A DNA stretch of 64,000 nucleotides from Streptomyces sp. CGMCC 4.7035. Its GTDB lineage: Bacteria; Actinomycetota; Actinomycetes; Streptomycetales; Streptomycetaceae. The DNA lies in the NCBI RefSeq assembly GCF_031583065.1, contig NZ_CP134053.1, forward strand, positions 682,001 to 746,000, read 5' to 3'. The notes beneath the pieces are model-generated. The model was not told the origin of the DNA and made no database searches. It was given only the letters and a program-made list of their open reading frames with translations. The position numbers and the translations under genes were made by a program. Shown here one piece after another: positions 22,763-64,000 of the stretch (within the stretch, counting starts at the first letter, position 1; every line of letters starts with the position of its first letter).

Positions 22763-22987
22763 GTCCTGTGGCTCCTTGTATCGGGTTGGATCGGGGTGCG
22801 TATAGGCGTGCGGGCGCGCGGCCGCCTGGCCCGGCTTCGATCCCGGGCCGCATCCGCATAAGCCTAGCCACCCGCTCCCCTCAGGGCGCCGATCTATCGG
22901 GTGGCGAAGCACCCCCGTGCATCAGGTATTGTTTACGTCGTTGCCAGGGAGCACCGCCGAAAGGTGGCCTTCAAGGCAGCAAACCCC

Positions 22988-23069
22988 GGCGGTGTGCCCG
23001 AGCGGCCAAAGGGAGCAGACTGTAAATCTGCCGGCTCAGCCTTCCCAGGTTCGAATCCTGGCGCCGCCA
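22988..23069 (+). tRNA. tRNA-Tyr (GTA)
   Basis: Class II tRNA of 82 nt with a long variable arm. The acceptor GGCGGTG pairs with CGCCGCC (one G-T). The anticodon arm GCAGA-CTGTAAA-TCTGC has GTA at 23022-23024. The T arm is CCAGG-TTCGAAT-CCTGG. The CCA end is not encoded. Confidence 0.97.
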
Positions 23070-23078
23070 CACTGGGGA

Positions 23079-23120
23079 AGACCCCCTCCTCTCTGCGGAA
23101 ACGCAGAGAGGAGGGGGTCT
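23079..23120 (+). terminator. tRNA-Tyr terminator
   Basis: A perfect 19-bp stem (23079-23097 with 23102-23120) closed by a GAAA tetraloop, ten nt past the tRNA. Confidence 0.9.
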
Positions 23121-23490
23121 CTTCGTGTCCGAGGACGATCCCAGAGGGACCGCAGACCGCCGACTCGGTGCCAGACCCCCGCGCCCAGCCATGAGCGGTG
23201 TCACGCCGGGTCGCACCGGATCAACGCCGCGGTCATGTACACCGCCACCGCCGCCACCAGCGGTTTCCCGTGGTTGCCGGTCCAACCACGGCATCCATGG
23301 GCACCATCACCGGGCAAGCCGCGCCAGCCACTGTTGCTGGTGTCACTGTGGGCGGTGACGTCACGGCGGCTACCGCTGCTGGTGGTCACTGTGGTCGGTG
23401 AAGTCGCGCCGGCCACTGTCACCGCCGGAATCGGCGGCACCAAAGAGCCCGTGGTGGGCGGCACCACGGGCTGGCTCGTACGCTGAGGTC
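23121..23490. other. 370-bp region without a convincing gene
   Basis: The sequence is rich in short imperfect repeats of GCCACTG/GGTCACTGTGG and GGCGGC. An 88-codon minus-strand frame (23201-23467) is open, but it has mixed codon bias and no family motif, and I do not call it. The end of the region serves as leader for the small gene at 23491. Confidence 0.5.
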
Positions 23491-32415: not shown

Positions 32416-32488
32416 AGGGTCGTAGCTCAATTGGTAGAGCACTGGTCTCCAAAACCAGCGGTTGGGGGTTCAAGTCCCTCCGGCCCTG
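32416..32488 (+). tRNA. tRNA-Trp (CCA)
   Basis: 73-nt cloverleaf with acceptor AGGGTCG/CGGCCCT, anticodon arm CTGGT-CTCCAAA-ACCAG with CCA at 32449-32451, T arm GGGGG-TTCAAGT-CCCTC, and discriminator G. It stands directly before secE, the classical bacterial arrangement. Confidence 0.97.
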
Positions 32489-32595
32489 CTACACACTCCC
32501 CACCAGGAAGTGTGCGCACAGTACGTACGTATTGCACCGCCGTGCGGCTCCACCGGGCGCGGCACGGCCACGACCCGGGAATCAGGTGAGGACGA

Positions 32596-39581: not shown

Positions 39582-39744
39582 GACCCTTTGCGCTGCCTGT
39601 TAGCTGCCTCCTGCCCGTCACCAGGAGCATGCCCCTCGCCTGAGCACCGACGATAAAGAGTCTCCGACCTGGGACTTTCCATCTCTGTGCCCCGGCGGGA
39701 CCGGTACGCGCGTAGTGAGTCCGAGCCCTCGGAAGGACCCCCTC

Positions 39745-42700
39745 TTGGCCGCCTCGCGCACTGCCTCGACCGCGAATACGAACAACGGCGCAAGCACTGC
39801 CCCGCTGCGCATCTCCTTTGCAAAGATCAAGGAGCCCCTCGAGGTTCCGAACCTGCTCGCGCTGCAGACCGAGAGCTTCGACTGGCTGCTCGGCAACACC
39901 GCCTGGCAGAGTCGGGTCGAGGAGGCTCTGGAGTCTGGTCAGGACGTCCCCACCAAGTCCGGCCTCGAGGAGATCTTCGAGGAGATCTCCCCGATCGAGG
40001 ACTTCTCCGGGTCGATGTCGCTGACGTTCCGGGACCACCGCTTCGAGCCGCCGAAGAACTCGATCGACGAGTGCAAGGATCGCGACTTCACGTACGCGGC
40101 TCCGCTCTTCGTCACGGCCGAGTTCACCAACAACGAGACCGGCGAGATCAAGTCCCAGACTGTCTTCATGGGCGACTTCCCGCTCATGACGCACAAGGGC
40201 ACCTTCGTCATCAACGGCACCGAGCGTGTCGTGGTGTCGCAGCTGGTCCGTTCGCCGGGTGTCTACTTCGACTCCTCCATCGACAAGACGTCCGACAAGG
40301 ACATCTTCTCCGCCAAGATCATCCCGTCCCGGGGTGCCTGGCTGGAGATGGAGATCGACAAGCGCGACATGGTCGGTGTCCGCATCGACCGCAAGCGCAA
40401 GCAGTCCGTGACCGTCCTCCTGAAGGCGCTCGGCTGGACGACCGAGCAGATCCTCGAGGAGTTCGGCGAGTACGAGTCCATGCGCGCCACCCTGGAGAAG
40501 GACCACACCCAGGGCCAGGACGACGCGCTGCTCGACATCTACCGCAAGCTGCGTCCGGGCGAGCCCCCCACGCGTGAGGCCGCGCAGACGCTGCTCGAGA
40601 ACCTCTACTTCAACCCCAAGCGCTACGACCTCGCCAAGGTCGGCCGCTACAAGGTCAACAAGAAGCTGGCCGCGGACGCGCCGCTCGACGCGGGCATCCT
40701 GACCGTCGAGGACATCATCTCGACGATCAAGTACCTGGTGAAGCTGCACGCCGGCGAGACCGAGACGGTCGGCGACAGCGGCCAGACGATCGTCGTCGAG
40801 ACCGACGACATCGACCACTTCGGCAACCGTCGTCTGCGCAGCGTCGGCGAGCTCATCCAGAACCAGGTCCGTACGGGTCTGGCGCGTATGGAGCGAGTCG
40901 TCCGCGAGCGGATGACGACCCAGGACGTCGAGGCGATCACGCCGCAGACCCTGATCAACATCCGGCCGGTCGTCGCCTCCATCAAGGAGTTCTTCGGCAC
41001 CAGCCAGCTGTCGCAGTTCATGGACCAGAACAACCCGCTGTCGGGTCTCACCCACAAGCGCCGTCTGTCGGCTCTTGGCCCGGGTGGTCTCTCCCGTGAG
41101 CGGGCCGGCTTCGAGGTCCGTGACGTGCACCCGTCTCACTACGGCCGTATGTGCCCGATCGAGACGCCCGAAGGCCCGAACATCGGTCTGATCGGCTCGC
41201 TCGCCTCCTACGGTCGCGTCAACGCGTTCGGTTTCGTCGAGACGCCGTACCGCAAGGTCGTCGACGGCCAGGTCACCGACGAGGTGGACTACCTGACCGC
41301 CGACGAGGAGGACCGGTTCGTCATCGCGCAGGCCAACGCCACGCTCAACGACGACCTCCGGTTCGCCGAGGCCCGCGTCCTGGTCCGCCGCCGTGGGGGC
41401 GAGGTCGACTACGTCAGCCCCGAAGACGTGGACTACATGGACGTCTCGCCGCGCCAGATGGTGTCGGTCGCGACCGCCATGATCCCGTTCCTCGAGCACG
41501 ACGACGCCAACCGTGCCCTCATGGGCGCGAACATGATGCGTCAGGCCGTGCCGCTGATTAAGTCCGAGGCCCCGCTCGTCGGCACCGGCATGGAGTACCG
41601 CTCCGCCGTCGACGCCGGCGACGTGGTCAAGGCCGAGAAGGCGGGTGTGGTCCAGGAGGTCTCCGCGGACTACATCACCACCGCCAACGACGACGGCACG
41701 TACATCACGTACCGCCTTGCCAAGTTCGCCCGCTCCAACCAGGGCACCTCGGTCAACCAGAAGGTCGTCGTCGCCGAGGGCGACCGGATCATCGAGGGCC
41801 AGGTCCTCGCCGACGGTCCGGCCACTCAGAACGGTGAGATGGCGCTGGGCAAGAACCTGCTCGTGGCGTTCATGCCGTGGGAGGGTCACAACTACGAGGA
41901 CGCGATCATCCTGTCGCAGCGCCTCGTGCAGGACGACGTCCTCTCCTCGATCCACATCGAGGAGCACGAGGTCGACGCCCGTGACACCAAGCTCGGCCCC
42001 GAGGAGATCACCCGGGACATCCCGAACGTCTCCGAGGAGGTCCTCGCCGACCTCGACGAGCGCGGCATCATCCGTATCGGTGCCGAGGTCGTCGCCGGCG
42101 ACATCCTGGTCGGCAAGGTCACGCCCAAGGGTGAGACCGAGCTGACCCCGGAGGAGCGCCTGCTGCGCGCCATCTTCGGCGAGAAGGCCCGTGAGGTCCG
42201 TGACACCTCGCTGAAGGTGCCGCACGGCGAGATCGGCAAGGTCATCGGCGTGCGCGTCTTCGACCGTGAGGAGGGCGACGAGCTTCCCCCGGGTGTGAAC
42301 CAGCTTGTGCGCGTGTACGTGGCGCAGAAGCGCAAGATCACCGACGGTGACAAGCTCGCCGGCCGCCACGGCAACAAGGGTGTCATCTCGAAGATCCTGC
42401 CCATCGAGGACATGCCGTTCCTCGAGGACGGAACTCCGGTCGACATCATCCTCAACCCGCTGGGTGTGCCGTCCCGAATGAACCCGGGACAGGTCCTGGA
42501 GATCCACCTCGGCTGGCTCGCCAGCCGCGGCTGGGACGTCTCCGGCCTCGCCGACGAGTGGGCGCAGCGCCTCCAGGCCATCGGTGCCGACCAGGTCGCC
42601 CCGGGCACCAACGTCGCCACCCCGGTCTTCGACGGTGCGCGCGAGGACGAGCTGGCGGGCCTGCTGCAGCACACCATCCCGAACCGCGACGGCGAGCGCA

Positions 42701-43230
42701 TGGTGCTCCCGTCCGGCAAGGCGCGGCTGTTCGACGGCCGTTCGGGTGAGCCGTTCCCGGACCCGATCTCGGTCGGCTACATGTACATCCTGAAGCTGCA
42801 CCACCTGGTCGACGACAAGCTGCACGCCCGCTCGACCGGTCCGTACTCGATGATCACCCAGCAGCCGCTGGGTGGTAAGGCTCAGTTCGGTGGCCAGCGC
42901 TTCGGTGAGATGGAGGTGTGGGCGCTGGAGGCGTACGGCGCCGCGTACGCCCTCCAGGAGCTCCTGACCATCAAGTCCGACGACGTCACCGGCCGCGTGA
43001 AGGTCTACGAGGCCATCGTCAAGGGCGAGAACATCCCCGAGCCCGGCATCCCCGAGTCCTTCAAGGTGCTCATCAAGGAGATGCAGTCCCTGTGCCTGAA
43101 CGTGGAGGTGCTGTCCAGCGACGGTATGTCCATCGAGATGCGTGACACCGACGAGGACGTCTTCCGCGCTGCGGAGGAGCTCGGCATCGACCTGTCCCGG
43201 CGCGAGCCGAGCAGCGTCGAAGAGGTCTGA
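39745..43230 (+). CDS. rpoB: DNA-directed RNA polymerase beta subunit
   Basis: 1161-aa catalytic-core subunit. I choose TTG 39745 ([14 protein letters not shown]) because GGAAGGA lies 7 nt upstream and it gives the standard streptomycete length; an in-frame GTG at 39715 would add ten residues. The rifampicin region is wild type by eye ([20 protein letters not shown] then RLSALGPGG), so the Asp, His and Ser positions most often mutated to resistance are unchanged. Also visible: [32 protein letters not shown] and the C-terminal [20 protein letters not shown]. Followed after 97 bp by rpoC. Confidence 0.98.
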
Positions 43231-43327: not shown

Positions 43328-47227
<3,900 letters not shown>

Positions 47228-47244: not shown

Positions 47245-47286
47245 CCGAAGGGCGGCCACTCCCACCGCGGAGTGGCCGCCCTTCGG
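47245..47286 (+). terminator. rpoBC terminator
   Basis: Perfect 18-bp stem (47245-47262 with 47269-47286), 6-nt loop, 17 nt after the rpoC stop. Confidence 0.92.
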
Positions 47287-47405
47287 CGTGTGCCTACCTG
47301 TTCCGACACGAGAGCCGGCTCACCATCGCGGCCCGCCGATGGCGCCGACCTTTCCCGCCGCGCGGAGAACCGTCGCCGCCGGACTCGACAGCTGCCCGCG
47401 CAGAA

Positions 47406-47435
47406 ACGCTCGGCTGGGAAACCCCAGCCGAGCGT
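47406..47435 (-). terminator. Terminator of the NRPS gene
   Basis: Perfect 13-bp stem (47406-47418 with 47423-47435) with AAAC loop, about 90 nt past the NRPS stop on the minus strand. Confidence 0.75.
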
Positions 47436-47523
47436 CTGCTTGTACTGATCGCGGCTTGATCAACTCACGGCGTGTCGCATCGGCCCCCGGAATTCGCCAG
47501 GTGCGCCGGTGCCCGCCCCTTCT

Positions 47524-50500
47524 TCACTCCTTGCGGGCCAGCCAGGCCTCCACCGCGGACCACACCGTCCCCAACGTCTCGGGCTCGGCGAGGTCGTAGT
47601 GGCCGCAGGCCACCCCGAAGCGGGTGATCTCCCCGGTCACGTACGGCTCCCACAGCTCGACCGTGGGCTCGTCCGGCGACCGGTGCTCCTCCGCGACGAC
47701 GAGCAGCACGTCCCCGGTGAAGCGTCCCGGCTCGTAGCCGGCGCGGATCATACTGTGGTTGTGCAGGACCCGGGCGAAGACCCGGTACTCGTCGTCCGTC
47801 ATCGCGCCCAGGCTGCTGCCCACCTCCCGGCGCACGACCTCGATGAGGTCGTCGGCGTCCGGCTGCGGAACGTCTCCGGCCTCCGCGCCGTCCGGCTGCG
47901 GAACGTCTCCGGCCACGGGGCCGTCCTGCTGCGGGACCCACGGGTACTGGTCCAGGACGACGAGTGCGCCGACCTCCTCACCCGACGACTGCAGCTGCAC
48001 GGCCATCTCGTGGGCGACTGCGCCTCCGTACGACCAGCCCAGTAGGTGGTAGGGGCCGCTGGGCTGCACCGAGCGCAGCTGCTCGATGTAGTCCGCCGCC
48101 ATCTCCTTGATGGAGCCCGCCGGTTCGCTGACCCCGTCCAGGCCGCGCGACTGGAGCCCGTACAGCGGGATCTCTGCCGGCACGTACCGGGCGAGTGGCA
48201 TGTAGCACCAGCTCAGCCCGATGGCCGGGTGCACCAGGAAGAACGGCGGTCGCTCTCCCCGCTCCCGGATCGGCAGCAGGACGTCGAGCGCGTCCCGCAC
48301 GGACGAGAGCGAGACCCGCTTGAGGAGCTCGGCGACGGTCGGGGCGGCGAACAGTTCGCGGACCGCGATCGCCAGCCCGCGCGCCCGCAGCCGCTCCACC
48401 AGCCTCACCGCCAGCAGCGAGTGGCCGCCCAGCGCGAAGAAGTCGTCGTCCACGCCGACCGAGTTGAGGCCGAGGACCTCGGCGAACGCCTCGCACACGT
48501 TAGCTTCGAGGGAGGTGACCGCCCAGTCGACCCTCTCCTCCACCACCGCGCTGTCCGGGACGGGCAGCGCCTTGCGGTCCAGCTTGCCGTTCGGCATCAG
48601 CGGCAGCTTGTCGATCACCACCACGGCCGAGGGGACCATGTAGCCGGGCAGCCGCTCCTGGGCGATCGCCCGGACCGCCTGTGCCAGGCCCTCGCGGACC
48701 TCCTGCGTGGTGTCCCGGTGGGGCACCACGTAGGCGACGAGCCGCTGGTCACCGGGGGTGTCCTCGCGGGTCAGGGCCACCGCCTGGGCGACCGACGGGT
48801 GGGTGGCCAGCAGTGCCTCGATCTCACCGAGCTCGACGCGGAACCCACGGATCTTGACCTGGTCGTCGGACCGGCCGACATACCGCAGGTCGCCGTCCGG
48901 GGTCCAGCGCACGACGTCGCCCGTACGGTACATCCGCGCGCCGTGGCCGCCGAACGGACTGGCCACGAAGCGCCCGGCCGTCAGGTCCGGCCGTCCCAGG
49001 TAGCCGCGGGCCATGCCGTCGCCGCCGATGTAGAGCTCACCTGCGACGCCGACAGGCACCGGGGCCAGCGCGTCGTCCAGCACGTACACCTGGGTGTTGC
49101 CGATCGGGCCGCCGATCGAGGTGGCGTCGGCGTCCTCCCCGGCCAGCACCTTGGCGGTCGACCAGACCGTGGTCTCGGTCGGACCGTACAGGTTGGTCAG
49201 GGTCGGCGTCCGGGACAGCAGGATCCGCGCCAGGTCGCTCGGTAGAGCCTCGGCGCCGATCATCGCCCGTACTCCGGTCCAGTCGACCGGGTCGTCGGCG
49301 TCGGCCACCAGCCCGCGCCACAGACTCGGGGTGGCGTGCACCAGCGTGATGCCGGCCGTGCGGATCAGCTGCCGCAGCGCCCACGGGTCGAGAACCTGCT
49401 CCTGAGCGGCGAGCACCAGCCGGGCCCCGTTGACCAGCGGCAGGTAGAACTCGAAGCCGGCCATGTCGCAGCCGTGCGTGCTGACGGCCAGCAGCCGGTC
49501 GGCCGTGCCCAGCCGGGACATCTCCTGCATGGAGTCCAGGAAGTTGACGATGGCCCGGTGCTCGACGAGCACACCCTTGGGCCGGCCGGTGGAACCGGAG
49601 GTGTAGATCACCCACATGGGGTTCTCCGGCCGCAGCGGAGCCGTACGGTCCGCGTCCGTCGGAGCGTGCCCGGCGTAGCGTGCGAGCTCCTCCCGCACCG
49701 AGGGGTCGTCGAGGACGACGACGGGGACGTCGGTCCGGGCCTCCGCTCCGACCTCGAACTCGGCGAGTCGCCCGCTCATCCCTGTGTTGGTCAGCAGGCA
49801 CACCGCGCCCGAGTCGGCGATCACGTACGCGATCCGGTCGGCCGGGTAGTGCGGGTCGATCGGCAGGTACGCTGCCCCTGCCTTGAGGACCCCGAGGAGA
49901 CCCACGATCAGGTCCGGGGTCCGCTCGAAGACCACCGCGACGACCGACTCGGGGCCCACGCCCCGGCCGATCAGGTACCGGGCGAGCCGGTTGGCACGGG
50001 CGTCGAGCTCGGCGTAGGTCAGCTCGGTGTGGCCGCAGACCAGGGCGGTCCGCTCCGGCGTACGGGCGACCTGCGCCTCGAACAGCCCGACGACGGTGGT
50101 GTCGGGGACCTCGGTCGCCGTGTCGTTCCACCCGATGAGCACTCGGTGGCGCTCGTCGTCGTCCAGGACGTCGACCGCGCCGAGCCGGACACCGGGATCG
50201 GCGCCCAGGGTCTCCAGCACGCGGCCGAGCCGCTCCGCGAGCCGGGTGACGGACTGCGGGTCGAACAGGTCTGCCGCCCCGATGACCGAGCCACGCATCC
50301 CGGCGGGCGCCCCGTCGGCGTCGAACAGCTCCATCATGTTGACATCCAGGTCGAACTTGACGACCGCTGCTTCGACGGACGGAGCGGGGGCCTGCCCGGG
50401 TGCGGTCTCCGGCTGACCGGCGGCATCCGCCGGCTCGTCGGATCCGGTCAGGTCCAGCACCGCCTCGGTGGTGTTCTCCAGCAGGAGCATCACCTGGAAC

Positions 50501-53500
50501 AGCGGGTGCCGTGCCATGGAGCGGGCCGGGGCCAGCTCCTCGACCAGCCGCTCGAACGGCACGTCCGGGTGGGCGAAGGCGTCCAGCCCGGCGTCGCGGA
50601 CCCGCTGCAGCACCTCGCGGAAGGTGGGATCGCCCGACAGGTCGCTCCGCAGCACGAAGGTGTTGACGAAGTAGCCGACCAGGTCATCGAGCGCCTCGTC
50701 CGTCCGGCCGGCGATCGCCGAACCGATCGGAATGTCGGTGCCCGCGCCGAGCCGCGACAGCAGCACCGCGAGAGCGCCGTGCAGCACCATGAACATGGTG
50801 ACACCCTCGGTGCGCGCCACCTCCGCGAGCCGCGCGTGCACCTCGGCCGGGATCTCCAACCGCACCCGGTGGCCGTGGTGGCCGGACGTGGCCGGGCGGA
50901 GCCGGTCGAAGGGCAGCTCCAGCTCCTCCGGGATTCCTGCCAGCGCCTCGCGCCAGTGGGCGGTCTGCCGCGCCATCAGGCTGTCGGGGTCCGCGCTGTC
51001 ACCCAGCACCTCACGCTGCCACAGGGCGTAGTCGGCGTACTGGACGGGCAGCGGCGCCCACTCGGGGACCCGGCCCGCGCGGCGTGCCGCGTAGGCGACG
51101 GAGACGTCCCGGGCCAGCGGGGCCCAGGACCAGCCGTCCGTGGCGATGTGGTGGATGACGACCTGGAGCAGGCAGCCCTCGCTTCCGGCGTCGAAGAGCC
51201 AGGCCTTGATGGGCACCTCGGCCGACAGGTCGAAGGCGTAGCCCTCGGCCTCGGCGACCGCCTCGGCGAGCGCGTCCGGGGCGACCTCGGTGACGGTCAG
51301 CTCCCAGTCGAGCTCGTTCAGGCCGAGGATGCGCTGGTACGGCTCACCGTCGGCAGCGGGGAACACCGTGCGCAGCACCTCATGGCGGCCCAGTACGTCG
51401 CGGAAGGCGGCGCGCAGGGCCCCGCCGTCCACGGCCCCGGGCAGGCGCACCGATACGGGGATGTTGTAGGTGGGGCTGCGGCCCTCAAGCTGGTCGATGA
51501 TCCACAGGCGGCGCTGGCCGTAGGAGAGCGGGAGCCGCTCCGGCCGCATGGCCGGCGCCAGCGGAGTCCGGCCCTCGCGGGCCCCGGCCAGCTGTGCGGC
51601 GAGCCCGGCCACCGTCGGTGCGTCGAAGAGAGTACGGATCTCCACCTCGACACCCAGGACCGTACGTATCCGGCTCACGAGCCGGACCGCCAGGAGCGAG
51701 TGGCCGCCCAGCTCGAAGAAGTCCTCGTCGACTCCCACCGAGGGCAGGCCGAGGACCTCGGCGAACGCCATGCACAGGATCTCCTCCTGCAACGAGAGCG
51801 CCCGACGCCCGGTACCGCCCGCACCCGACCCGTAGACCGGTGCCGGAAGTGCCTTCCTGTCGAGTTTTCCGTTCGCGGCCAGCGGCAGCGCGTCCAGGAC
51901 CACGACCGCGGTCGGGACCATGTGCTCGGGCAGCCGGTCCGCGACGAACCTGCGGACCACGGCGGGCAGCTCGTCATCGCGCTCGCTGGTGTCGGCCGGG
52001 ACCGCGTACGCGATCAGTCGGGTGTCACCCGGGATGTCCTCGCGCGCGACGACAGCTGCCTGACCGATCTCCGGGTGCGCGATGAGCACCGACTGGATCT
52101 CGCCGGGCTCGACCCGGTGGCCGCGGACCTTGACCTGGTCGTCGGTGCGGCCGAGGAACACCACCTGGCCGTCGGCCGTCCACCGCGCACGGTCGCCGGT
52201 GCGGTACATGCGCTGCCCGGCCTCCCCGAAGGGGCAGGCGATGAACCGCTCGGCGGTCAGACCCGCCCGCCTCACATAGCCTCGGGCCAGACCCGCACCC
52301 GCGATGTACAGCTCACCGGCCGCACCGGCCGGCACGGGCCGCAGGGAGGCGTCGAGCACGTAGAGCCGGGTGTTGGCGATCGGCGAGCCGACCGGCACGA
52401 CACCGTCCGCGACCATGTCGGCCGTCAGACGGGTCGTCGCGACACCGATGGTCGCCTCCGTCGGACCGTAGTGGTTGAAGACACCCCGCTCACCGGCCGC
52501 CTCGGCCAGCTCCCGCACGAAGGCGGGCGCAGCAGCCTCGCCGCCGAGGACGAGGGACTTCGCGGGAAGCACACCGGCGATGCCGCCGACCGCGCCGAGC
52601 GCCGCCAGGTGCGACGGCACCCCCTTCACGAAGTCGATCTCGTGCTCGGCCAGATAGCCGGCCACCGCTGCCGGGTCTGTGACCGCACCCTCCTCCAGGA
52701 CGTGCAGCTCACCGCCCGACGTCAGTGCGGCGAACACCACGGTGTTGCCGAGGTCCGTGGACTGCGCCTGCAGCAGCGCGTACCGGCCGCCGGTCGCCCC
52801 GAACCCCACCCTCCCGGGCACGGAGGTCACGTAATTCGCCAGTGCGCCATGGGTCACCGCCACACCCTTGGGACGGCCCGTCGAACCCGATGTGTAGATC
52901 ACGTACCCGAGGGCCTGAGGCACCACCGCCACCTCGGGTGCCGACGCCGGGGCCGCGGCCAGCTGCATCGCTGTGAACGGGTCGTCCAACGCGACCAGAC
53001 GGTCACGCCCGGCCGGAAGTTCGTCGAGAATCTCCTCCGTCGTCAGCGTCAGCACCGCTCCGCTGTCACGCATCATGAACGTGACCCGGTCGATGGGCTG
53101 AGCGATGTCGATCGGCAGATAGCCCGCACCCGCCTTCCAGACGGCCAGGATCCCGGCGATCATCTCGGCACCCCGCGGCAGCGCCAGTCCGACGAGGGAC
53201 TCCGCACCGACGCCCTGGCCGATCAGGTAGTGGGCCAGCCTGTTCGCCCGCGCGTCCAGCTCCGCGTACGTCACTCGCTCACCGTCGGCGACGACCGCCA
53301 CCGCGTCCGGGGTCCTGACAGCCTGGCCCTCGAACAGCCCGACCAGTGACACCTGTGGCGACACCTCGGCCGCCGTGTCGTTCCAAGTGGCCAGGACGCG
53401 GTCGAGTTCGGCTTCGTCCAGCACGCCCACGCTGTTCAGAGGCTGGTCCTGCCCGCCGTCGAGTACGCCTTCGAGCACCGTCACCAGGTTGTCCATGGCG

Positions 53501-56500
53501 GTGCGCATCAACACGCCCACCTGACGCGCGTCGCCAGGGGCCATCGCATCGACTGCCAGCCCCATCGAGTCCTGGTTGTCATCGACGGCCACGGTCAGCG
53601 GGTAGTTGTTGAGCGGTCGCAGGTAGAGCCGGCGGATGCCCTCGACGGCCTCGTCGCGGCGCTGTTCGGCCGCCTCGTCGGCGGGGCGCCCCGTGTTGTG
53701 CCGGTAGTTGAGGATCGAGGTGAACAGGGGGCTGTCGCCGGGGACGCCGCTCGCCCGCTGCGCGACGGCCAGTGGCGCGTGCTCGTGCTCCAGGAGCCCG
53801 GCGAGCTGTCCGCGCATCGCGGTGACCGCTTCCAGTACTCCGGTGTCGCGCACCCGTACACGGACCGGCAGGGTGTTCATGAAAAGGCCCATGGCCCGGT
53901 CCGAACCCTCGCCCGCGTTCATGCGGCCGAAGAGCACGGTGCCGAAGACGACGTCGTCGTGCCCGCTCGCGGACGCGAGCACCCGCGCCCACGCCACGTG
54001 CGCCAGCGTGGCCGGGCTCGTACCCAGACGCCGCGCCATGTCGCGCACGCGTGTGTCCAGGTCCGGCCGGAAGGATACGTGGGCGGACTCCATCTCCGTG
54101 GTGCCGTTCCGGTTCCGGTCGACGAGACCGAAGGGCACGGTCGGCTCGCTGACGTCACCGAGCAACGCGGTGAAGTACCGCTCGTGCTCGGTGTTGTCCA
54201 CGCCGGTGCGGGCCTGTGCGACGAAGTTGCGGAACGGCAGCGGCTCCGCCAGTTCGCCGCCACCGCCCAGGAAGGCGACGATCTCCTCGAAGACCGCTTC
54301 CAGGGTGGTGTGGTCCTGGACCATGTGGTGCATCCGCAGCAGGGCCGCCCACTCGTCACCGCCCGGGACGGGCGCCACGTGCAGGTCGATGAGCGGGGCC
54401 CGGTTCAGCACGAGCGGCTTCACGTCCATGGTCAGGAACTGCGTGACCACATCGGGGTCGGCAGGATCCAGCGTCACTTCCGTCATGGGCAGCGCGGCCC
54501 TGCGCCAGACCACCTGGACGGGTTCGCGCAGGCCCTCCCACGCGATGGCCGTGCGGTAGATGTCGTGCCGGTCCAGCAGCTGCTGGAGAGCAGCCGCGAA
54601 GTCGTCCAGCCGGGCACGCGAGTCGAAGGACAGCACGGTGGGCGCGGCGTAGGTGTCCTTGCCCCCGGCCGCCATCAGGTGGTGGAAGAGCAGGCCCTCC
54701 TGGAGCGGGGCCAGCGGGTAGATGTCTGCGACGTTCGCCGCGCCGCCCTCGACAGCCGCGACGACCCGCTCGACCTCGGCGGCCGTCAGCTCGACCAGCG
54801 GCAGCATCGCGGGGGTGATCTCGGTGGCGTCCGCCGGGATCAAGTTCTCCGGCACGTCGACCTGGCCGGCCCCGGCTGCCGAGGCGAGCCCGGCGACTGT
54901 CGGGGTCTCGAACAGCGCCCGCACGGAGACGGACACGCCGCGCAGACGCAGCCGCTCGACGAGTGACACCGCGAGCAGCGAGTGGCCGCCCAGGGCGAAG
55001 AAGTTGTCCTCGACCCCGACGGTTTCCAGGCCCAGCACCTCGGCGAACACCTCGCAGAGGATCTCCTCACGGGCGTTCACCGGACCTCGGCCGGACCCTG
55101 TCGTGTACTCGGGTGCCGGCAGGGCGGCGCGGTCGAGCTTGCCGTTGAGGGACAGGGGCAGGGCGACGAGGACGACGACCGCGGAGGGGACCATGTGCTC
55201 GGGCAGCCTGAGTCCGGTGAACTCCGCGAGGCGCAGGGGCAGGTCGGGGTCGGCTCCGTCCACCGGGACGACGTAGGCGACGAGCCGCTTGTCGCCCGGC
55301 ACGTCCTCGCGCGCGACGACGGCGGCCTGGGCGACCTCCGGGTGGGTCAGCAGCACCGACTGGATCTCGCCGGGCTCGATGCGATAGCCGCGGATCTTGA
55401 CCTGCTCGTCGGCGCGGCCGAGGTATTCGAGCTGGCCCTCGGTGTTCCAGCGGGCGAGGTCTCCGGAGCGGTACATCCGCCGCCCGGGTTCGAACGGGCA
55501 GGCCACGAACCGCTCGGCCGTCAGGCCCGGCCGGCCCGTATAGCCACGGGCCAGCTGAGCACCGGCTACGTACAGCTCACCTGCGACACCGGCCGGGGCC
55601 GGGTTGAGGGAGCCGTCGAGGACGTACAGGCGGGTATTGGCGATCGGACGGCCGATCGGCACCGACTCGCCGACCTCCTGCCCGGCCCGCATCTCGAACA
55701 CGGAACATCCGACCACCGTCTCCGTCGGCCCGTACTCGTTCACGATGACGGAGTGCGGAGAACGCTCCAGCCACTCCCGCGCCACCGCCCCCGGCAACGC
55801 CTCACCGCCCACGACCCACGTACGGGCCGAAGAAGCGGCGTCCGCATCGTCCAGCAGTTCCGACAGCAGCGGAAGATGCGCCGGAACCACCTTCACCAGA
55901 CCGAACTCAGGGTGGCGACCAACCAGTTCCGCAAGGCCCTCCGCCCCGCCCGCGGCGCTCGCCACGACCGGCGAACCCGACACGAGAGGAACGACGAGGC
56001 TGGTGACCGTCAGGTCGAAGGCCGGCGAGGAGTGCAGCGGAGCACCGCCACCCGCGGCCATGCCATACGCGCCGGCAGCCCACTGGACGTAGTTCGCCAG
56101 ACCCCCGTGCGTGACGGTCACGCCCTTCGGTCGGCCCGTGGAGCCGGAGGTGTAGATGACATACGCAGGGTGGCCGGGCAGGACGGTGCGCGCCAGGGCG
56201 GAAGCGTCGAGCTCTTCCAGTGCGGCCATGACTGCCGTGTCGTCGAGGACGGTCACCGGGACGTCGGTGTGTTCGGTGAACTGGCCCAGCCGGTCGCGCA
56301 GTTCGGCGGCCGTCAGCACACAGGCCACGTCGGCGTCGGTCAGCACGTACGCGATGTGCTCGGCGGGGTACTCCGGGTCCACCGGAACGTAGGCGGCGCC
56401 GGCCTTCCACACGGCGAGGACCGCTACCACGGCCGGGATGCCGCGGCCCAGGCACAGGCCGACGACAGATTCCGCGCCGACACCCCGGTCGGCCAGGTGG

Positions 56501-59500
56501 CGGGCGAGTTGGTTGGCCCGCGCGTCCAGCTCCGCGTAAGACACGACGACACCGTCGACGACGACGGCCGCGGCGGCGGGGGTACGAGCTGCCCGGGCCT
56601 CGATCAGCCCGGGCAGCAAGGTGTCCGGGAGGTCGACGTCGGTGTCGTTCCACCGGGTGAGCAGTTCCTGGCGGGTGACCGGGTCCAGCACCTGGACGGT
56701 GCGCAGGGGCCGGTCGGATCCGCCGGACAGCTTCGCTTCCAGTGCGGCGACGAGGTTCTCGGTCGTCGTGCTGAGCAAGGCGGCCACTTCGCGGGCGTCG
56801 ATCGGAGCGATCGCGTCCACGGTCAGGCCGAAGCCGTTGCCGTCGTCGTCCATGGAGACGGTGAGGGGGTAGTTGTTCCGTTCCTGCGAGAAGACGGTAC
56901 GGATGCCCTCGACCTCCGCTCCGGGCTCCGCCTGCTCCGGGCCGACCACCGAGTTGTGGCGGTAGTTGAACAAGGCAGTGAACAGCGGGGCAGCACCGGC
57001 GATGCCGCTCGCCTGCTGGGCGACGGCGAGCGACGCGTGCTCGTGCTCCAGCAGCTCGGCGAGCTGGGTGCGGGCGGCGGACACGGCAGCCGCGGCGTCC
57101 AGTTCGCCCACGCGTATCCGGACGGGCAGGGTGTTGATGAACGGCCCCGGAGTCCGGCCCGATCCGGTGCCCGCGTTCATGCGGCCGAAGAGGACCGTGC
57201 CGAAGACGACGTCCTCGCGGCCGCTGACGGCGGCCAGGAACCGGGCCCAGGCCACGTGCATCACGGTCGCCGGGCTGGTACCCAGACGCCGTGCGACCTC
57301 GCGCAGCCTGTCTCCGAGCTCCGGGGCGAGGCCCAGCTGGGCTCGGACGACCCCGGCGCCGCTGCCCCGGACGTCCAGCAGGCCGTAGGGGGCCGTCGGC
57401 TCGGTGACGTCGCCGAGCAGGTCCGCGAAGTAGCGCTCGTGCTCGGAGCGTTCGACGCCGCCGCGGGCCTGCGCGACGAAGTCGCGGAAGGGGAGGGGCG
57501 CGGGGAGTCCGGCGCTCCGGCCGGTGAGGAAGGCCTCGACCTCTCCAAGCAGGATCTCCAGCGCCGTGTGATCCTGCACGATGTGGTGGACCCGGACGAG
57601 CGCCAGCCATGCGCCGTCGTCCGGCAGGGGCGCCGCGTGGACGTCGATCAGCGGGGCCCGGCCGAGGTCCATCGCGAGTCCGACGGTGGTGAGCAGCGCT
57701 CCCACCGGGTCGGTGGCGTCGTCGACCGGTGCCACTTCCACGACGGGCAGAACGGCTCGGCGGTGCACGACCTGGACCGGCTGGCGCAGGCCTTCCCAGA
57801 CCACGCCGGTACGGAAGATGTCGTGCCGGTCGACAACGTGCTGGAGGGCGTCGGTGAAGGCATCGAGACTCTCACGGGAGTCGCACTCGACCACGGTCGG
57901 CAGGACGTAGGTGTCCTCCCCGCCGTCGGCCAGCAGGTGGTGGAAGAGCAGGCCTTCCTGGAGCGGGGCCAGGGGGTAGACGTCCGCGACGTTCGCCGCA
58001 CCGCCCTCGACGGTCGCCACGACCCGGGCCAGCTCCTCGGCCGACAGCTCGACCAGCGGCAGCATCTCGGGCCTGATCTCCGTCGCATCCGCCGGAATAA
58101 GGTTCTCCGGCACGGTCACATGCTCGGTCCCCGCAGCCAGGGCCAGACCGGCCGGAGTCGGAGTCTGGAACAGGGCCCGTACGGCGACGGACACACCGCG
58201 CACACCCAGTACCTCGACCAGGCGGATCGCGAGCAGGGAGTGACCGCCGAGGGCGAAGAAGTCGTCATCCACACCGACGTGCTCGAGACCCAGGACCTCG
58301 GCGAACACCTCGCAGAGGATCTCCTCACGGGCAGTGGCCGGAGCCCGGCCGACCCCCGGGGCGTAGTCCGGTGTGGGGAGGGCTTTGCGGTCGAGTTTGC
58401 CGTTGACGGACAGAGGCAGCGCATCGAGGAGCACGACCGCGGAGGGAACCATGTAGGCGGGCAGCCTGCTGCCCGTGAACTCCCGCACCGCGTCCGGCAA
58501 TGCCTCGGCGTCGCCGCCCGGGGCCGGCACCACATAGGCCACCAGCCTCTTGTCACCGGGCACGTCCTCCCGGACCACCACCACGGCCTGCCCCACACCG
58601 GGCTGCGCGGCCACCACTGCCTGGACCTCGCCCAGCTCGATCCGGAAACCACGGACCTTGACCTGCTCGTCCGCCCGGCCCAGGTACTCGACCTCGCCCT
58701 CGGCGCTCCACCGCACCAGGTCGCCCGTGCGGTACATCCGCTCACCCGAACCGAACGGACACGCAATGAACCGCTCCGCCGACAGACCGGCACGGCCCAG
58801 GTAGCCCCGCGCAAGACCCGCACCGGCCAGGTACAGCTCACCCGCCACACCCACCGGCACCGGACGCAGAGCGGAGTCCAGCACGAACACCCGCGCATTG
58901 GACACCGGACGGCCGATCGGAACGATCCCCTCGACGTCACCCTCCGCATACCAGGCCGTCGAGTACACCGTCGCCTCAGTCGGACCGTAGATGTTCGCCA
59001 CCCGCACCCCGGGCAACGCACCCCGGATTCCGGCGATCTCACCGGCCGTCAGTGCCTCGCCGGCCAGTACCACCGTGCCGGGGCGGGCCGTGAGCCGGCC
59101 GCTGCCCGTGATCTGTGCGAAGGCGGACGGGACACCACTGACGAGGCTGATGTCCCACGGACCGTGGTCGGCGTCGACGAGGGCAAGGAGGTCTTCGACG
59201 ATCTCCACACTGCCGCCCGACACCAGCGGGCCGAAAAGTTCGAACACCGACACGTCGAAGTTGAACGACGTCGACAACAGCACCCGCGAGAAGTCACTTC
59301 CGCCGAACTCCGCGGCCGCCCACGCCAGCAGGTTCACCACCGAACGGTGCTCGACCACCACACCCTTGGGGCGCCCGGTCGACCCCGACGTGTAGATCAC
59401 GTACGCCGGGTGCTCCGGCCGTAGGGCGATGCCGGACGGCGCTCCGGTGCCGAGTGCGACCAACTCGGCCCGCACGGCCGGATCGTCCAGCACGACGACG

Positions 59501-61233
59501 TGGCCGGGGAGCGAGTCAGCCGTGGCAGCCGAGGCCAGAACCACCACCGGGGCCGCGTCCTCGACCATGAACGCGATTCGGTCCGTCGGATAACCCGGGT
59601 CCAGTGGCACGTACGCAGCGCCCGCCTTCAGCACGGCCAACAACGCCACCACCGCGTCCGCGTCGCGCTCCAGGCACACGCCGACCAGCGATTCGGGGCC
59701 GGCCCCGCGGGCGATGAGCAGCCGCGCCAGACGGTTCGCCCGCGCGTCCAGCTCCGTGTACGAGAGTTCCGCGCCGCCCGCCACCAGCGCGAGCCCGTCC
59801 GGCGTCCGGGCCACCTGCTCGGCGAACAGCTCCGGAAGGGTGGCCGCGGCGACTGCGGTGTCCGAGCCATCCCCGTATTCCAGGAGCTGCCGGAGCTCGT
59901 CGGCGCCGAGAATCTCGACCTGGCTCAGCCGGCGCTGCGGGTCGGCCGTCACCTCGGCGAGGATCCGCTCCCAGCGCACCGCGATCCGCTGCAACGACCC
60001 GACATCGAACAGGTCCGACGCGCCGATCAGCTGACCGCGCAAGCCGGCGGCCACGCCGTCGGCGTCGAACAGCTCCCCGGCGCTCGCCTCCAGGTCGACC
60101 TTGGCGGCCACGCCGGACTGCACCGCGGCGACCGGGAGGGCCGCCGGGTCCTGGACGGGCACAGCCCCGTCCTCCATGGTCAGCATGACCTGGAAGAGCG
60201 GGTGTCGGGCCAGCGAACGGGTCGGTGCCAGCTCCTCGACCAGCTTCTCGAAGGGCACGTCCTGGTGGGCGAAGGCCTCCCAGCCGGTTTCCCGTACCCG
60301 GCCCAGCAGCTCACTGAAGGTCGGGTCGCCGGACAGGTCGGTGCGCAGGACGAGGGTGTTGACGAAGAAGCCGATCAGGTCGTCCAGGGCGGAATCGGTG
60401 CGTCCGGCCACGGCCGCGCCGATCGGGATGTCGGTTCCCGCGCCGAGCCGCGACAGCAGTACGGCGAGGGAGGCCTGGAGCACCATGAAGACAGTCGCGC
60501 CCTCGGCGCGCGCCAACTTGGCCATCCGGGCGTGGACTTCGGCGGAGACCTCCAGCGGCACGCTGTGGCCGCGGTATCCGGCGACGGCCGGGCGGACCCG
60601 GTCGAAGGGGAGCTCCAGCTCCTCCGGTATCCCCTCCAGCACCTGCCGCCAGTACGCGACCTGCCTGGCTATCACGCTGTCCGGGTCGGCCTGGTCGCCG
60701 AGCAGCTCGCGCTGCCAGAGCGCGTAGTCGGCGTACTGGACGGGCAGCGGCTCCCATTCGGGAGCCCGGCCCGCATGGCGCGCCTCGTAGGCGGTGGTGA
60801 CGTCCTGGATCAGCGGACCCTTGGACCAGCCGTCACTGGCGATGTGGTGGACTACCACCAGCAGGACATGGTCGTCGGGCGCCGTGGAGTAGAGCCAGGC
60901 CCGGATGGCTGGTTCGGACGCGAGGTCGAAGGTGTAGCCCTTCGCATCGGCCAGGAGCGCGTCGAGGTCGGCCGGGTCGACGTCCGCGACCGTCAGCTGC
61001 CAGTCGAGTTCGTCCAGCTTGAGGATGCGCTGGTACGGCTCGCCGTCGGCGACTGCGAACACGGTCCGCAGGGCCTCGTGCCGGCCGATGACATCGCGCA
61101 GGGCGGCACTGAGCGCCTCCCGGTCGATGTGGCCGGGCAGCCGCAGCAGGACGGGGATGTTGTAGGTCGCGTTCGGGCCTTCGAGTTGGTCGATGAACCA
61201 CAGCCGGCGCTGCGCGAATGACAATGGAATCAT
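47524..61233 (-). CDS. Four-module non-ribosomal peptide synthetase with thioesterase
   Basis: 4569-aa cytoplasmic megasynthase. Order read from motifs (residue numbers approximate): C1 (HHIASDG, 129), A1 ([11 protein letters not shown], 616), T1 (GGHSLL, 995), C2 (HHIVQDH, 1217), A2 (1699), T2 (2083), C3 (HHMVQDH, 2303), A3 (2784), T3 (3176), C4 (HHIATDG, 3361), A4 (3878), T4 (4268), TE (GWSYGG, 4400; GHYDLAEP). No epimerase or methyltransferase. Specificity codes by eye: A2 DLTKVGEVGK (Asn-like), A3 DLTKVGHIGK (matches Asp), A1 DVFSVAIVYK and A4 DMFHMGLVWK (not assigned). C1 is the first domain, so it accepts an acyl or peptidyl donor from elsewhere. The type I TE releases or cyclises the product. 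ATG 61233 has AGGAGGAG 5 nt upstream. Confidence 0.95.
47857..47914 (-). repeat. 33-bp direct repeat inside the thioesterase domain
   Basis: A 25-bp sequence is present at 47857-47881 and 47890-47914 (33-bp period). It encodes two copies of an 11-residue unit (GDVPQPD plus spacer) inserted after [12 protein letters not shown], in the lid region of the TE. Confidence 0.85.
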
Positions 61234-61428
61234 CAGACTCCTCCTGGTTGCGCATCGGCCGCAAGCCGGCCTAGCTGACTCTCATTTCCGATCTGCTGTG
61301 CGAGTTCCACCGGGATCCGGGTGGCCAGCAGGGTCTTCAGGGGCAGTTCGACAGCGAGGGCCGTCCGTGAAAGCCGGGGACGCTGGTCCCTGGCCCGACC
61401 ACTAAGCGGATCGGGGGGACGCCTGCGG

Positions 61429-62079
61429 TCATGCCCGGTATCGCGGTCTCATGGATGCTCGGAAGACCCGGCATGGGCAGGCCGATGATGTTTTCTCGGC
61501 GGCCGGTGGTGCACGCAGCCGACCGCCGCCGCGGTGAGCAGCCAGGACGGCAGCGTCTTCGGCTGCCGGGTCGCCGCTCTCAGGGCCGCCCACTGCCCGG
61601 CGTCGAGTGTCGCAGCCGCGGCAGGGGCGGTCCGCGTCCACCAGCCCGGAGACAGGTCCAGGGGTGGGTGCGGCCGGAAGATCACCCTGGAGGATCTCGG
61701 TGTGGGCCTCGGTCTTCTGGTGCGAGAAGCCCAACTCGGGTTCCACCGTGGGGAAGGCGGTGGTGGACAGCGGTCCACCGGCGAGTTCGACCGGTCTGCC
61801 CATGTCGGCACGCGTCCAGGCCACAGCGGCGGCGTGGACATGCTGCCGGGTGACGCCGTCGGTGACGCGCAGTCTCGGCCGCGGGTCCTCTGCGTCCTGT
61901 GGGGTGCGGCGCGGGTGGGCCACGAGTTCCGGGTCGGAGACCACCCGCTGCTCCCCGTTCTCGCCGGTGCCGTGCCGGCGGTTCTCGGGCGCGAACCACT
62001 GAAGGCAGCGAACGGCGGGCTGTTCAGCTACGAGTTCCCGGACATCGCCCCCAGACACAGCCATTCGCCCGCACTCCAA
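61429..62079 (-). pseudogene. Decayed reading frame of unknown origin upstream of the NRPS
   Basis: The minus strand shows good high-GC third-position coding character, but it switches frame. Roughly 61750-62030 reads best in one frame (VTDGVTRQHVHAAAVAWTRA, ELGFSHQKTEAHTEI), whereas about 61450-61670 reads best in another (LDAGQWAALRAATRQPKTLP, SWLLTAAAVGCV). A single 216-codon frame spans both, but its second half is Arg/Pro/Gly-rich shadow sequence. I read this as a frameshifted, probably dead gene. I do not recognise the family and see no transposase catalytic motif. It could also be a sequencing error in a live gene. Confidence 0.45.
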
Positions 62080-62509
62080 TCGTTCGACTCATCGACTGGA
62101 GCAGCGCAGGCCGCCGCCACTAACCGGGGCTTGCCGCGTCACCGCCGCCCAGCGGAACCTGGAACTTGATGGCTGCAATATGGATAAACCTGCAAGCCCG
62201 GTAGCCGACCGCCGCTTTACTTGATCCACTATGGCTTAGAGGAACACCGATGTTCAACGTTCCCGCACCCCGTCACGAGGTCGCCCGAGGCCCGCACCGG
62301 GCCTGCGGCCGAGCGTGTTCAACCGCGCCGGAGCGGCAGTTGATCGGGACGTCATGTCAGCGCGCAGGTGGGGAAGTTGAAGCACCACGGGCACGGGCGC
62401 GTACAACAACGACATCAGGGCCTCGGGGAGCCGCTCGGCATGGGGTCGTACCCCCGAGCTACCAGAAGGCCCTGCGCACGTTGCCAGATCAGTGGAGAGA
62501 GACGGCTTC
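62080..62509. other. 430-bp region without a supported gene
   Basis: Locally less GC-rich around 62160-62240, with stop codons in every frame. It contains no clear terminator. Open plus-strand frames here lack coding bias. Confidence 0.5.
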
Positions 62510-63043
62510 TCAGTCTTCGTCGGTCAACAGGCGCTCGCGGATGGCTGCGGGTTGCGCACGGAACTTGGTCGGCTTGGAGGAACTGTCGATTTCCAGTTCC
62601 CCTTGCTTGGCCATTCGCCGCATCATCTCGTACGTGGCGGTCCGTTGCGTCTCGGACGGGTCACCGCCCTGGATCCGGGAAGCCATATCGCCCGCTGTGA
62701 GCCAGTCGTCGGGTGATTCGAGCATGATCTCCCGGATGCGGGCTTTCCGGTTGACCGGCTTCGCTGGACGGACCGTTCGACGGGCGCGCGGCTTGCCTTT
62801 CGTCGCCTTGCTGCTGGTCCCGGCGGAGTGAGCCTGAGGCGGTGCGGCGGGCTCGGGTGCCGGGGTCGAATCCTGAGTAGCGGGCGGCTCCGGCGAGGCG
62901 TCAACGAATTCGCGAAGAGCCTCGATCGCCGAATCGATGCGCGCGAGTTGCTTGTCGAGCGCATCGCGTTGCGCCAAGACGTGTGACCGGCTCTGCAGCA
63001 TCGCGGCGTATGCGCGGCGCGCTTCGGTGACCGCGTCTTCCAC
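62510..63043 (-). CDS. Coiled-coil plus winged-helix-like protein, unknown
   Basis: 177-aa soluble protein from GTG 63043 (AGGGG about 8 nt upstream). Residues 1-48 form an amphipathic helix with heptad-like spacing (AYAAMLQSRSHVLAQRDALD, then LARIDSAIEALREF). Residues 50-95 are a Pro/Ala/Ser linker that ends in a basic patch (KGKPRARRTVRPAKPVNRKA). Residues 98-165 (IREIMLESPDDWLTAGDMAS, TATYEMMRRMAKQGELEI) look like a winged helix-turn-helix of the kind that reads DNA or mediates assembly. No family name is certain. It is divergent from the P450 gene and could regulate the cluster. Confidence 0.7.
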   Translation of the reverse strand: MEDAVTEARRAYAAMLQSRSHVLAQRDALDKQLARIDSAIEALREFVDASPEPPATQDSTPAPEPAAPPQAHSAGTSSKATKGKPRARRTVRPAKPVNRKARIREIMLESPDDWLTAGDMASRIQGGDPSETQRTATYEMMRRMAKQGELEIDSSSKPTKFRAQPAAIRERLLTDED

Positions 63044-63260
63044 GGAGTTGCCCCTTTGTCGGCTGGATCTTGTTCGGTCTCGCTCCGACCTTGCAGGAAG
63101 GGTACAGTCTCATGGACCTGCCCCTTTCGTGTTGCTGAGGAATCGACGCGTCCTCCGGCGGTCTCGTCTTCTGCGTTGCCATATCGAACTGTGTGCCCGT
63201 GTCCGCCCCGTGCCCGTACCGGTGCTCGGTATCGGGCAGACCTCTGTGTGAGGGCTTCCC

Positions 63261-64000
63261 ATGCCTAGCGACCCTGCCGGTCAGCCTCCCCACATCAACC
63301 TCGTCGATCCAGGGCTCTACTCCCACGGCGATCCCTTCGTGCAATGGCGATGGCTCCGGGCGAACGACCCCGTGCATCGCCACACACCCACGGACTACCC
63401 ACCCTTCTGGGCTCTGACGAGATACGAGGACGTCAAGACCGTCTTCCGTGATGCCGAGACCTTCAGCTCCGCCCAGGGGATCCTCCTGCGGCCCTCGGGT
63501 CATGGAGCCGACCCAGGAGGCGGTCGCACCCTGGCGCTCACCGACCCGCCGCGCCACCGCCAACTGCGGGGGCTGGTCGACGACTGGTTCACGGTCCGTT
63601 CGGTGCGGGCCATCGAGGAGAAGATGCGGGAGGTCGCCGGCAGCGTCCTCGACCTCGCCGTGAAGCGCGAACACTGCGATTTCGTGGAGGACATCGCCGC
63701 ACGGATCCCGCTCTACATGATCTGCAGCATGATGGGGGTCCCGGAACCCGACTGGGAGAGGCTGTTCACGTTGAGCCGCCAGGCTTTCGGGGCCGGAGAC
63801 CCGATGACCCGGCGGTTCGCCCACCTGGAGATCATGGGGTACTTCGAGGATCTCGCCGCGGTCAAGGCGGCGAACCCGGCTGACGACCTGGTGAGCGTGC
63901 TCGTGGCCGGCGAGATCGAGGGCAAGCGGATCAGCCGGGACGAGGTCATCCTCAACTGCGACAACCTCTTTGTGGGCGGGGCCGAGAACACCCGTATGGC
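63261..64000 (+). CDS. Cytochrome P450, N-terminal part (runs off window)
   Basis: First 246 residues of a bacterial class I P450 mono-oxygenase. ATG 63261 has GAGGG about 7 nt upstream. Family signatures: DPVHRHTPTDYPPFWALTRY, TLALTDPPRHRQLRGLV (helix C region with the heme-propionate HRxxR) and LYMICSMMGVPEPDW. The I-helix reads LFVGGAENTRMA, where Asn replaces the first Thr of the common GxETT/DTT oxygen-activation motif. The heme Cys loop lies beyond the window. Next to an NRPS it is a candidate tailoring hydroxylase, possibly acting on a carrier-bound amino acid, but that is inference from location. The 217-bp gap upstream holds the divergent promoters. Confidence 0.9.
   Translation, partial: MPSDPAGQPPHINLVDPGLYSHGDPFVQWRWLRANDPVHRHTPTDYPPFWALTRYEDVKTVFRDAETFSSAQGILLRPSGHGADPGGGRTLALTDPPRHRQLRGLVDDWFTVRSVRAIEEKMREVAGSVLDLAVKREHCDFVEDIAARIPLYMICSMMGVPEPDWERLFTLSRQAFGAGDPMTRRFAHLEIMGYFEDLAAVKAANPADDLVSVLVAGEIEGKRISRDEVILNCDNLFVGGAENTRM

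Follow-up and report, generated by a model that had tools for sequence, protein, structure and literature searches.

We analysed a stretch of 64,000 nucleotides from Streptomyces sp. CGMCC 4.7035 (the window, bases 682001–746000 of the single 8.09-Mb contig), in which rpoC is followed by DNA of a nonribosomal peptide synthetase (NRPS) cluster. Region positions are given below as contig position minus 682000; the contig starts inside dnaA, which places the locus about 0.73 Mb from that gene. The single PF00164 match of the genome was found at contig position 885224 (rpsL gene start, 885173), beyond the 64-kb window, from which rpsL is absent. The distance from rpoC to rpsL, the interval hereafter called the slot, is 155.9 kb, of which the window shows only the left rim of 16.7 kb. 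An earlier note, made from the letters of the window, had described rpoC followed by a convergent 13.7-kb NRPS gene, a decayed frame, a small protein and a cytochrome P450 with no rpsL in the window, and this description was borne out by Pfam and NCBIfam matches and by the PF00164 search. The features of the window, including those defined by comparison with Streptomyces sp. Ag109_O5-1 (G392), are as follows.

39715–43230, + strand: rpoB, open reading frame (ORF) with NCBIfam match above cut-off, part of the conserved left flank of the slot
43328–47227, + strand: rpoC, ORF with NCBIfam match above cut-off, part of the conserved left flank of the slot
47245–47286, + strand: terminator-like hairpin 3' of rpoC, with perfect 18-bp arms (repeat search)
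47290–62507, no strand assigned: additional block of 15.2 kb that separates the native sequence on the left from the cluster shared with Ag109_O5-1 (blastn of this genome against Ag109_O5-1)
47524–61233, − strand: NRPS gene of 4569 amino acids (aa), (C-A-T)x4-TE, open over 4569 codons or 13.7 kb (Pfam, domain models)
61234–61264, − strand: T-C linker remnant running into the NRPS start (motif scan; short blastn matches to NRPS gene junctions)
61370–62079, − strand: starter condensation domain, decayed and split over two frames, a probable leftover of the opening gene of a second assembly line (tblastn, query the N-terminal part of the first large NRPS)
62510–63043, − strand: 177-aa ORF of unknown family without Pfam match, first gene of the block common with Ag109_O5-1
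63261–64000, + strand: first 246 codons of a cytochrome P450 gene that runs on to region position 64469 (Pfam p450, 1.6e-23 on the full 402 aa)

The rpoB–rpoC flank showed 95–97% nucleotide identity to five relatives. The hairpin was the last native sequence on the left, where homology to relatives and to Ag109_O5-1 stopped at about 47289–47297 in blastn comparisons. Against 20 relatives, native sequence ended at about window position 47291 on the left and began again about 230 bp before rpsL on the right (region position of about 202942), and the insert is bounded by the hairpin after rpoC and by the upstream region of rpsL.

Variation of the rpoC–rpsL interval

The distance between the two genes was surveyed in two sets of genomes of the same genus. 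The first set comprised 80 genomes (the first 75 by rpoC similarity leaving out G099, and five from further down), in 79 of which rpsL was found and in 78 of which both genes lay on one contig and strand, the genes being split over contigs in G242 and no rpsL match being obtained in G130. These 78 gaps ranged from 461 to 22,787 bp with a median of 1574 bp. The second set comprised 75 hand-picked genomes, mostly of few contigs, all of which were measured and two of which repeated the first set. Among the resulting 151 same-genus genomes, 150 had a gap of 0.3–22.8 kb, and the median over all 151 was 1309 bp. Gaps were below 1 kb in 36 genomes, 1–2 kb in 52, 2–5 kb in 21, 5–10 kb in 26 and 10–25 kb in 15, with G012 kept separate. 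In G012, rpoC (5451049) and rpsL (1671649) lie on the same strand of contig C1 but 3.78 Mb apart, which reflects either a rearrangement with its breakpoint in the slot or an assembly error, and no related acyl-CoA dehydrogenase (ACAD) was found in this genome. For other genera, 57 of 63 genomes were measurable (of the other six, three were split over contigs, two had one usable side and one had no match), with a median gap of 3.7 kb and a maximum of 25.0 kb. Two genomes that belong to the same family but to a different genus contain tandem rpsL-like copies with 79% identity at sites distant from rpoC (G458:C4:6544336–6545538 and G452:C1:173516–174622).

Within the family, the rpoC–rpsL gap normally varies in length, and the 156 kb found here lies far outside its range. 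The earlier note had regarded this neighbourhood as normally fixed, which did not hold, given that the gap was 2 kb or more in 63 of the 151 same-genus genomes and variable across the family. Its claim that secondary-metabolite DNA splits rpoC from rpsL stood over the full distance, and in 150 of the 151 same-genus genomes the gap is too short for such a cluster.

Slot content was inspected in 17 genomes. Five slots of 18–23 kb shared a gene set (G294, G274, G261, G068 and G125, the last three inspected in part; loci L158–L163). All of the nine tested proteins of the G261 slot (L161) matched PHROGs, including a major tail protein, a tail terminator, a tape measure protein, a minor tail/Dit protein, an endolysin and a repressor; no match to a terminase or integrase was found among these nine proteins, G261 being the only slot tested in this way. 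The 18–23-kb cargo of G261 is a predicted phage-tail-like element, and the five relatives appear to carry such elements. Another cassette of 7.7–9.5 kb recurred in the slots of G240, G252, G201 and G040 (L013, L016, L021 and L030), and its copy in G252 encodes, according to Pfam, an M48 peptidase and a Crp-type regulator together with a large protein without Pfam match. The G252 slot was also observed to contain an IS605-type TnpB gene (L016:8663–9862). Two glycosyltransferase-type genes at region positions 200619–202840 of the present insert were also found in the slots of G226 and G136. The other cargo of relatives had the same two flanks as the insert but unrelated content, 8–23 kb long in the slots inspected. 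The rpoC–rpsL gap is a family-wide variable cargo slot. In G276, a pair of acyl-CoA dehydrogenase genes was seen about 20 kb past rpsL, beyond the str operon (G276:C410:4797–8266).

The assembly lines in the insert

Its domain content suggests that most of the insert is a giant lipopeptide-type NRPS cluster. Five NRPS genes were found at region positions 85833–194961 (about 109 kb), the last of which is broken. Counted with hidden Markov models (HMMs) built on the window NRPS, the first four contain 11, 6, 10 and 6 modules and the last one consists of condensation (C), thiolation (T) and thioesterase (TE) domains, with 33 adenylation (A) domains in the line and a largest protein of 11,826 aa and 11 modules. 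For epimerization (E) domains, no extra condensation-type domain was found in the lines of this genome and Ag109_O5-1. The giant genes had been considered as polyketide synthases from their lengths, which was rejected as no KS motif was found and Pfam and the HMMs gave C-A-T; three minus-strand genes called at region 173–193 kb were likewise discarded as gene-caller artefacts, the NRPS there lying on the plus strand.

A-domain signature codes were provisionally assigned to Ser in 11 of the 33 A domains, to a DALS type in four, to Asn in three and to Thr in three, with Asp, Gly and aromatic types among the others and several codes unassigned. None matched the canonical codes for hydroxyphenylglycine (Hpg) or dihydroxyphenylglycine (Dpg), several codes being without assignment. 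Ser was the commonest code and accounted for 6 of 33 domains in Ag109_O5-1. Nine of the 11 Ser domains fell into two groups in which pairs were 97–99% identical, compared with 82–85% to the Ser domains of Ag109_O5-1, and this higher identity within than between genomes points to homogenization within each lineage.

Accessory genes identified by Pfam and NCBIfam encode a P450, ABC transporters, a helix-turn-helix regulator that we take to be StrR-like, an aminotransferase, a two-component pair, a PALP enzyme, an FMN-dependent oxidase with an HPPD-type dioxygenase, a CmlA-type hydroxylase, MbtH, FAAL and two acyl-CoA dehydrogenases. The Dpg set was complete, with scores against NCBIfam cut-offs of 637.9/425 bits for DpgA, 311.9/140 for DpgB, 710.4/530 for DpgC and 455.4/400 for DpgD. 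Genes for lipoinitiation were present as FAAL, the acyl-CoA dehydrogenases and a starter C domain, so called from its position and divergence. If the cluster were expressed, the acyl starter would come from FAAL and the dehydrogenases, a lipopeptide of some 33 residues would be assembled on the main line, and the TE would release the product for export by the ABC transporters.

The main line is damaged in this assembly. About 11.5 kb is missing from its terminal gene between C30 and T33, with no more than 10 bp of shared sequence at the join. The gene also carries a frameshift, and FAAL contains an in-frame stop that the FAAL of Ag109_O5-1 lacks. Four of the 40 Ag109_O5-1 genes compared look broken here: FAAL, one gene at region 22277–23124 and two apparent end effects. 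With so few broken genes, base errors seem to be infrequent. dnaA is nevertheless broken: it spans the contig start (L182:1–300), its sequence ending about 66 residues into the DnaA domain, and the contig may be artificially closed or misjoined there. As the lesions read, lipopeptide production in this strain is doubtful, and Ag109_O5-1 would be the better source.

The NRPS of the window appears to be a diverged paralogue of the terminal synthetase of this giant line, situated outside the block shared with Ag109_O5-1. Its A domain 4 was 69% identical to the terminal A domain of Ag109_O5-1 (other A domains, at most 57%), its A domain 1 was 62% identical to A30 and its TE 47%, and no near-identical copies of it were found elsewhere in the insert. 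In Ag109_O5-1, about 87 bp stand in place of the 15.2-kb block, which matches there only as an NRPS paralogue at 72–76%. The 84.6% nucleotide match to Ag109_O5-1 starts at 62508, at the edge of the 177-aa ORF, and the grouping of the four features beyond rpoC into one cluster, as proposed before, had to be given up. The T-C linker remnant represents the same kind of junction as is found between the large NRPS genes, and the decayed C domain scored 55.8 and 30.8 bits, compared with 25.0 for the best of 100 trinucleotide shuffles. The linker and the decayed starter C domain lie upstream of the window NRPS, so remnants of both ends of a second line seem to survive with its interior gone, and we infer that the window NRPS and the decayed frame derive from a second line, related to the first but encoded on the opposite strand, from which the interior was deleted.

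The nearest TE relatives of the window NRPS in 246 genomes were found in G085, G110 and G039 (65–68%), in other NRPS clusters. Among the related clusters, that of G110 has about 19 modules and that of G306 about 11, with G085 and G039 inspected in part, and these clusters share CmlA-, Hmo-like and, more distantly, HmaS-like genes. Where measured, these clusters lay outside the slot, the gaps being 1.8 kb in G110, 18.6 kb in G306 and 3.0 kb in G039.

The cluster in Ag109_O5-1 and its history

An alignment scan of 84,980 named species genomes with the ACAD of the insert yielded 164 loci, and among the best 80 of these Ag109_O5-1 stood out with 86% identity, the next being 67%. Its rpoC lies 18 kb from the matching ACAD gene. 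A 200-kb alignment of the two genomes revealed the native left flank up to region position 47289, a shared block at 62508–200510 and native sequence again from 202967. Within the shared block, identity was 85–88% in the accessory stretches and lower and non-collinear inside the NRPS genes, and the P450 was 92% identical at the amino acid level. The Ag109_O5-1 cluster measures about 136 kb and its line consists of 9, 6, 10, 4 and 4 modules, again 33, in five open frames. The FMN-dependent oxidase and HPPD-type pair (L004:12696–14815) had no match in the Ag109_O5-1 stretch searched (L126–L128). Third-position identity between the two genomes had a median of 77 for 19 cluster genes and 77 for 23 core genes (p=0.36), and a median of 79 for all 33 core genes against the 77 of the cluster (p=0.33). 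By these comparisons, the cluster of Ag109_O5-1 appears orthologous, at the same site and diverged as much as the core genes.

The cluster was otherwise rare. ACAD identity above 70% was found in one of 392 genus genomes, which was this genome itself, with two others at 66–67%; at E <= 1e-200 ACAD was found in 2 of 150 relatives, its own genome included; and protein-database matches were obtained for S. hyaluromycini (99%) and NPDC013172 (86%). Among the genomes examined, Ag109_O5-1 was the only other one found with the cluster at the rpoC–rpsL site, whereas its presence in most relatives would, according to the earlier note, have marked it as ancestral rather than inserted. Two cluster-free genomes are closer to this genome than Ag109_O5-1 is: G240 at 23 of 28 core genes, with a gap of 8.5 kb, and G104 at 23 of 32 genes with two ties, with a gap of 1.0 kb.

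We consider it probable that the rpoC–rpsL gap acts as a cargo slot in which the cluster is an old resident that has diverged with the genome, and that the window NRPS is a relic of a second line. Core-like divergence at the same site together with closer cluster-free relatives makes inheritance within a subclade, with loss or replacement elsewhere, the simplest reading. The ancestor shared by this strain and Ag109_O5-1 probably already had the cluster in its slot, and closer relatives would have lost it or had it replaced, most likely by homologous recombination in the conserved flanks. The inserted island of the earlier note survives insofar as the cluster is rare and unusual at this site, but not as a simple insertion in this strain, since Ag109_O5-1 carries it at the same site with core-like divergence.

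Several points weigh against this explanation. Ancestral presence is deduced from two carriers, and a transfer between both lineages near their split would look alike. No recombination tract was found, nor did the flanks consistently resemble Ag109_O5-1 more than relatives without the cluster. The best NRPS-gene matches between the two genomes are non-collinear, and the first divergence comparison, with 23 core genes, left out ten conserved ones (genes 27–30, 35, 36 and 68–71). The FAAL stop and the frameshift and deletion in the terminal gene mean that the cluster may be silent here, and given the broken dnaA some of these lesions could be assembly errors. The crude gene calls could also have missed a small mobile gene.

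The last point concerns delivery by an integrative mobile element; the size and patchiness of the cluster would fit an island. No tRNA was found within 14 kb left of the boundary, the nearest being tRNA-Trp at 32416–32489, or in the right-hand stretches inspected up to contig position 897000. The longest direct repeat between 373 bp on the left and 3.3 kb on the right was 10 bp, as expected by chance (10 shuffles: mean 10.9, maximum 12), and the longest inverted match between the insert edges was 13 bp. No integrase-, relaxase- or transposase-type Pfam match was obtained among the 25 non-NRPS insert proteins scanned, a set of crude gene calls in which small genes could be missed. The left boundary thus lacks a tRNA or att repeat, as had been noted before, and the suggested check for flanking repeats and integrase genes revealed no integrase-type boundary in Pfam matches and edge comparison. 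With neither integrase, att repeats nor tRNA edge found in the genes and edges scanned, we regard this route as highly improbable. Almost equally improbable is that NRPS module repeats misjoined unrelated regions beside rpoC in the assembly: there are A domains in this genome with 100% mutual identity, and dnaA is broken, but Ag109_O5-1 shows the same two edges of the shared block. The relic block, internal deletion and frameshift are seen in this assembly only.

Two other explanations deserve more weight, though both seem unlikely. The two strains could have obtained the cluster in separate events at one and the same site, through recombination in the flanks with a shared donor pool, rather than by inheritance, in line with a patchy distribution limited, for ACAD above 70%, to this genome among 392 of the genus and to Ag109_O5-1, and with closer relatives being without the cluster; its divergence nevertheless equals that of the core genes and the flanks contain no consistent donor-like tract. 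Somewhat less likely still, the window NRPS could be a working terminal synthetase that substitutes in trans for the collapsed terminal gene of the main line, giving 33 + 4 modules. Its frame is open over all 4569 codons while the main terminal gene is a frameshifted C-T-TE, and its module plan is that of the Ag109_O5-1 terminal gene (codes DVFSVAIVYK, x, Asp-type and DMxH-type, then TE). Against such a role, only remnants are left of the genes that once lay upstream of it, identity is only 62–69% to the best-matching A domains and 47% in the TE, FAAL has its in-frame stop, and no docking domain was recognized, although no dedicated search was made.

Known systems and significance

Clusters for enduracidin and ramoplanin combine a lipid start by FAAL and acyl-CoA dehydrogenase with MbtH, aromatic glycine precursors, an ABC transporter and large NRPS genes. 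They also possess several Hpg-selective A domains, and a starter C domain belongs to their lipoinitiation set. The insert resembles them in having MbtH, aromatic glycine precursor genes, ABC transporters and large NRPS genes, and in its lipoinitiation genes (FAAL, acyl-CoA dehydrogenases and a putative starter C domain). It differs in having 33 A domains over about 109 kb, compared with the 17 modules on 57 kb given for them (PMC8616955), and in its full Dpg pathway and the predominance of the Ser code. Syringopeptins of Pseudomonas, with 22 or 25 residues, are described in a 2010 review as the products of the largest prokaryotic NRPS reported (PMC3039948); they share with the present line a very long lipopeptide assembly without E domains, and the present line exceeds them in module count. 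The largest single NRPS protein in a 2016 genome survey, from Photorhabdus, has 16,367 aa and 14 modules (PMC4849084), and is thus one bigger protein than the 11,826 aa and 11 modules here, where the whole line is longer. In the portions of the open-access literature covered, no 33-module NRPS was found, the wording '33 modules' there referring to a polyketide cluster.

Planobispora rosea belongs to another actinobacterial order. Its GE2270 thiopeptide cluster (pbt) has rpoC upstream and rpsL, rpsG, fusA and tuf among its downstream genes (PMC3943966), and is the one published precedent found for a cluster at the rpoC–rpsL junction. It is a 26.8-kb cluster for a ribosomally synthesized and post-translationally modified peptide beside its own resistance EF-Tu gene (PMC3943966), in contrast to the giant NRPS here, which is without evident link to translation. 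Searches of the open-access literature found no publication on the rpoC–rpsL cargo slot as such, and none linking tailocin, Streptomyces and rpoC.

A bolder extension, which we put forward tentatively and think unlikely in full, is that the slot is a dedicated family-wide exchange site where the conserved RNA-polymerase and ribosomal operons serve as homology arms and clusters of more than 130 kb move in either direction without integrase, and that its cargo line of at least 33 modules would make the longest bacterial nonribosomal lipopeptide so far, with a second, opposite-strand line that formerly used the same precursor genes. The assembly line is nearly twice as long as that of enduracidin, and its five NRPS frames are open in the named strain Ag109_O5-1. 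One of the landmarks by which actinobacterial genomes are aligned for synteny is a cargo site of high variability, and the slot offers searches for hidden biosynthetic clusters and for phage-tail-like elements a fixed place in the chromosome.

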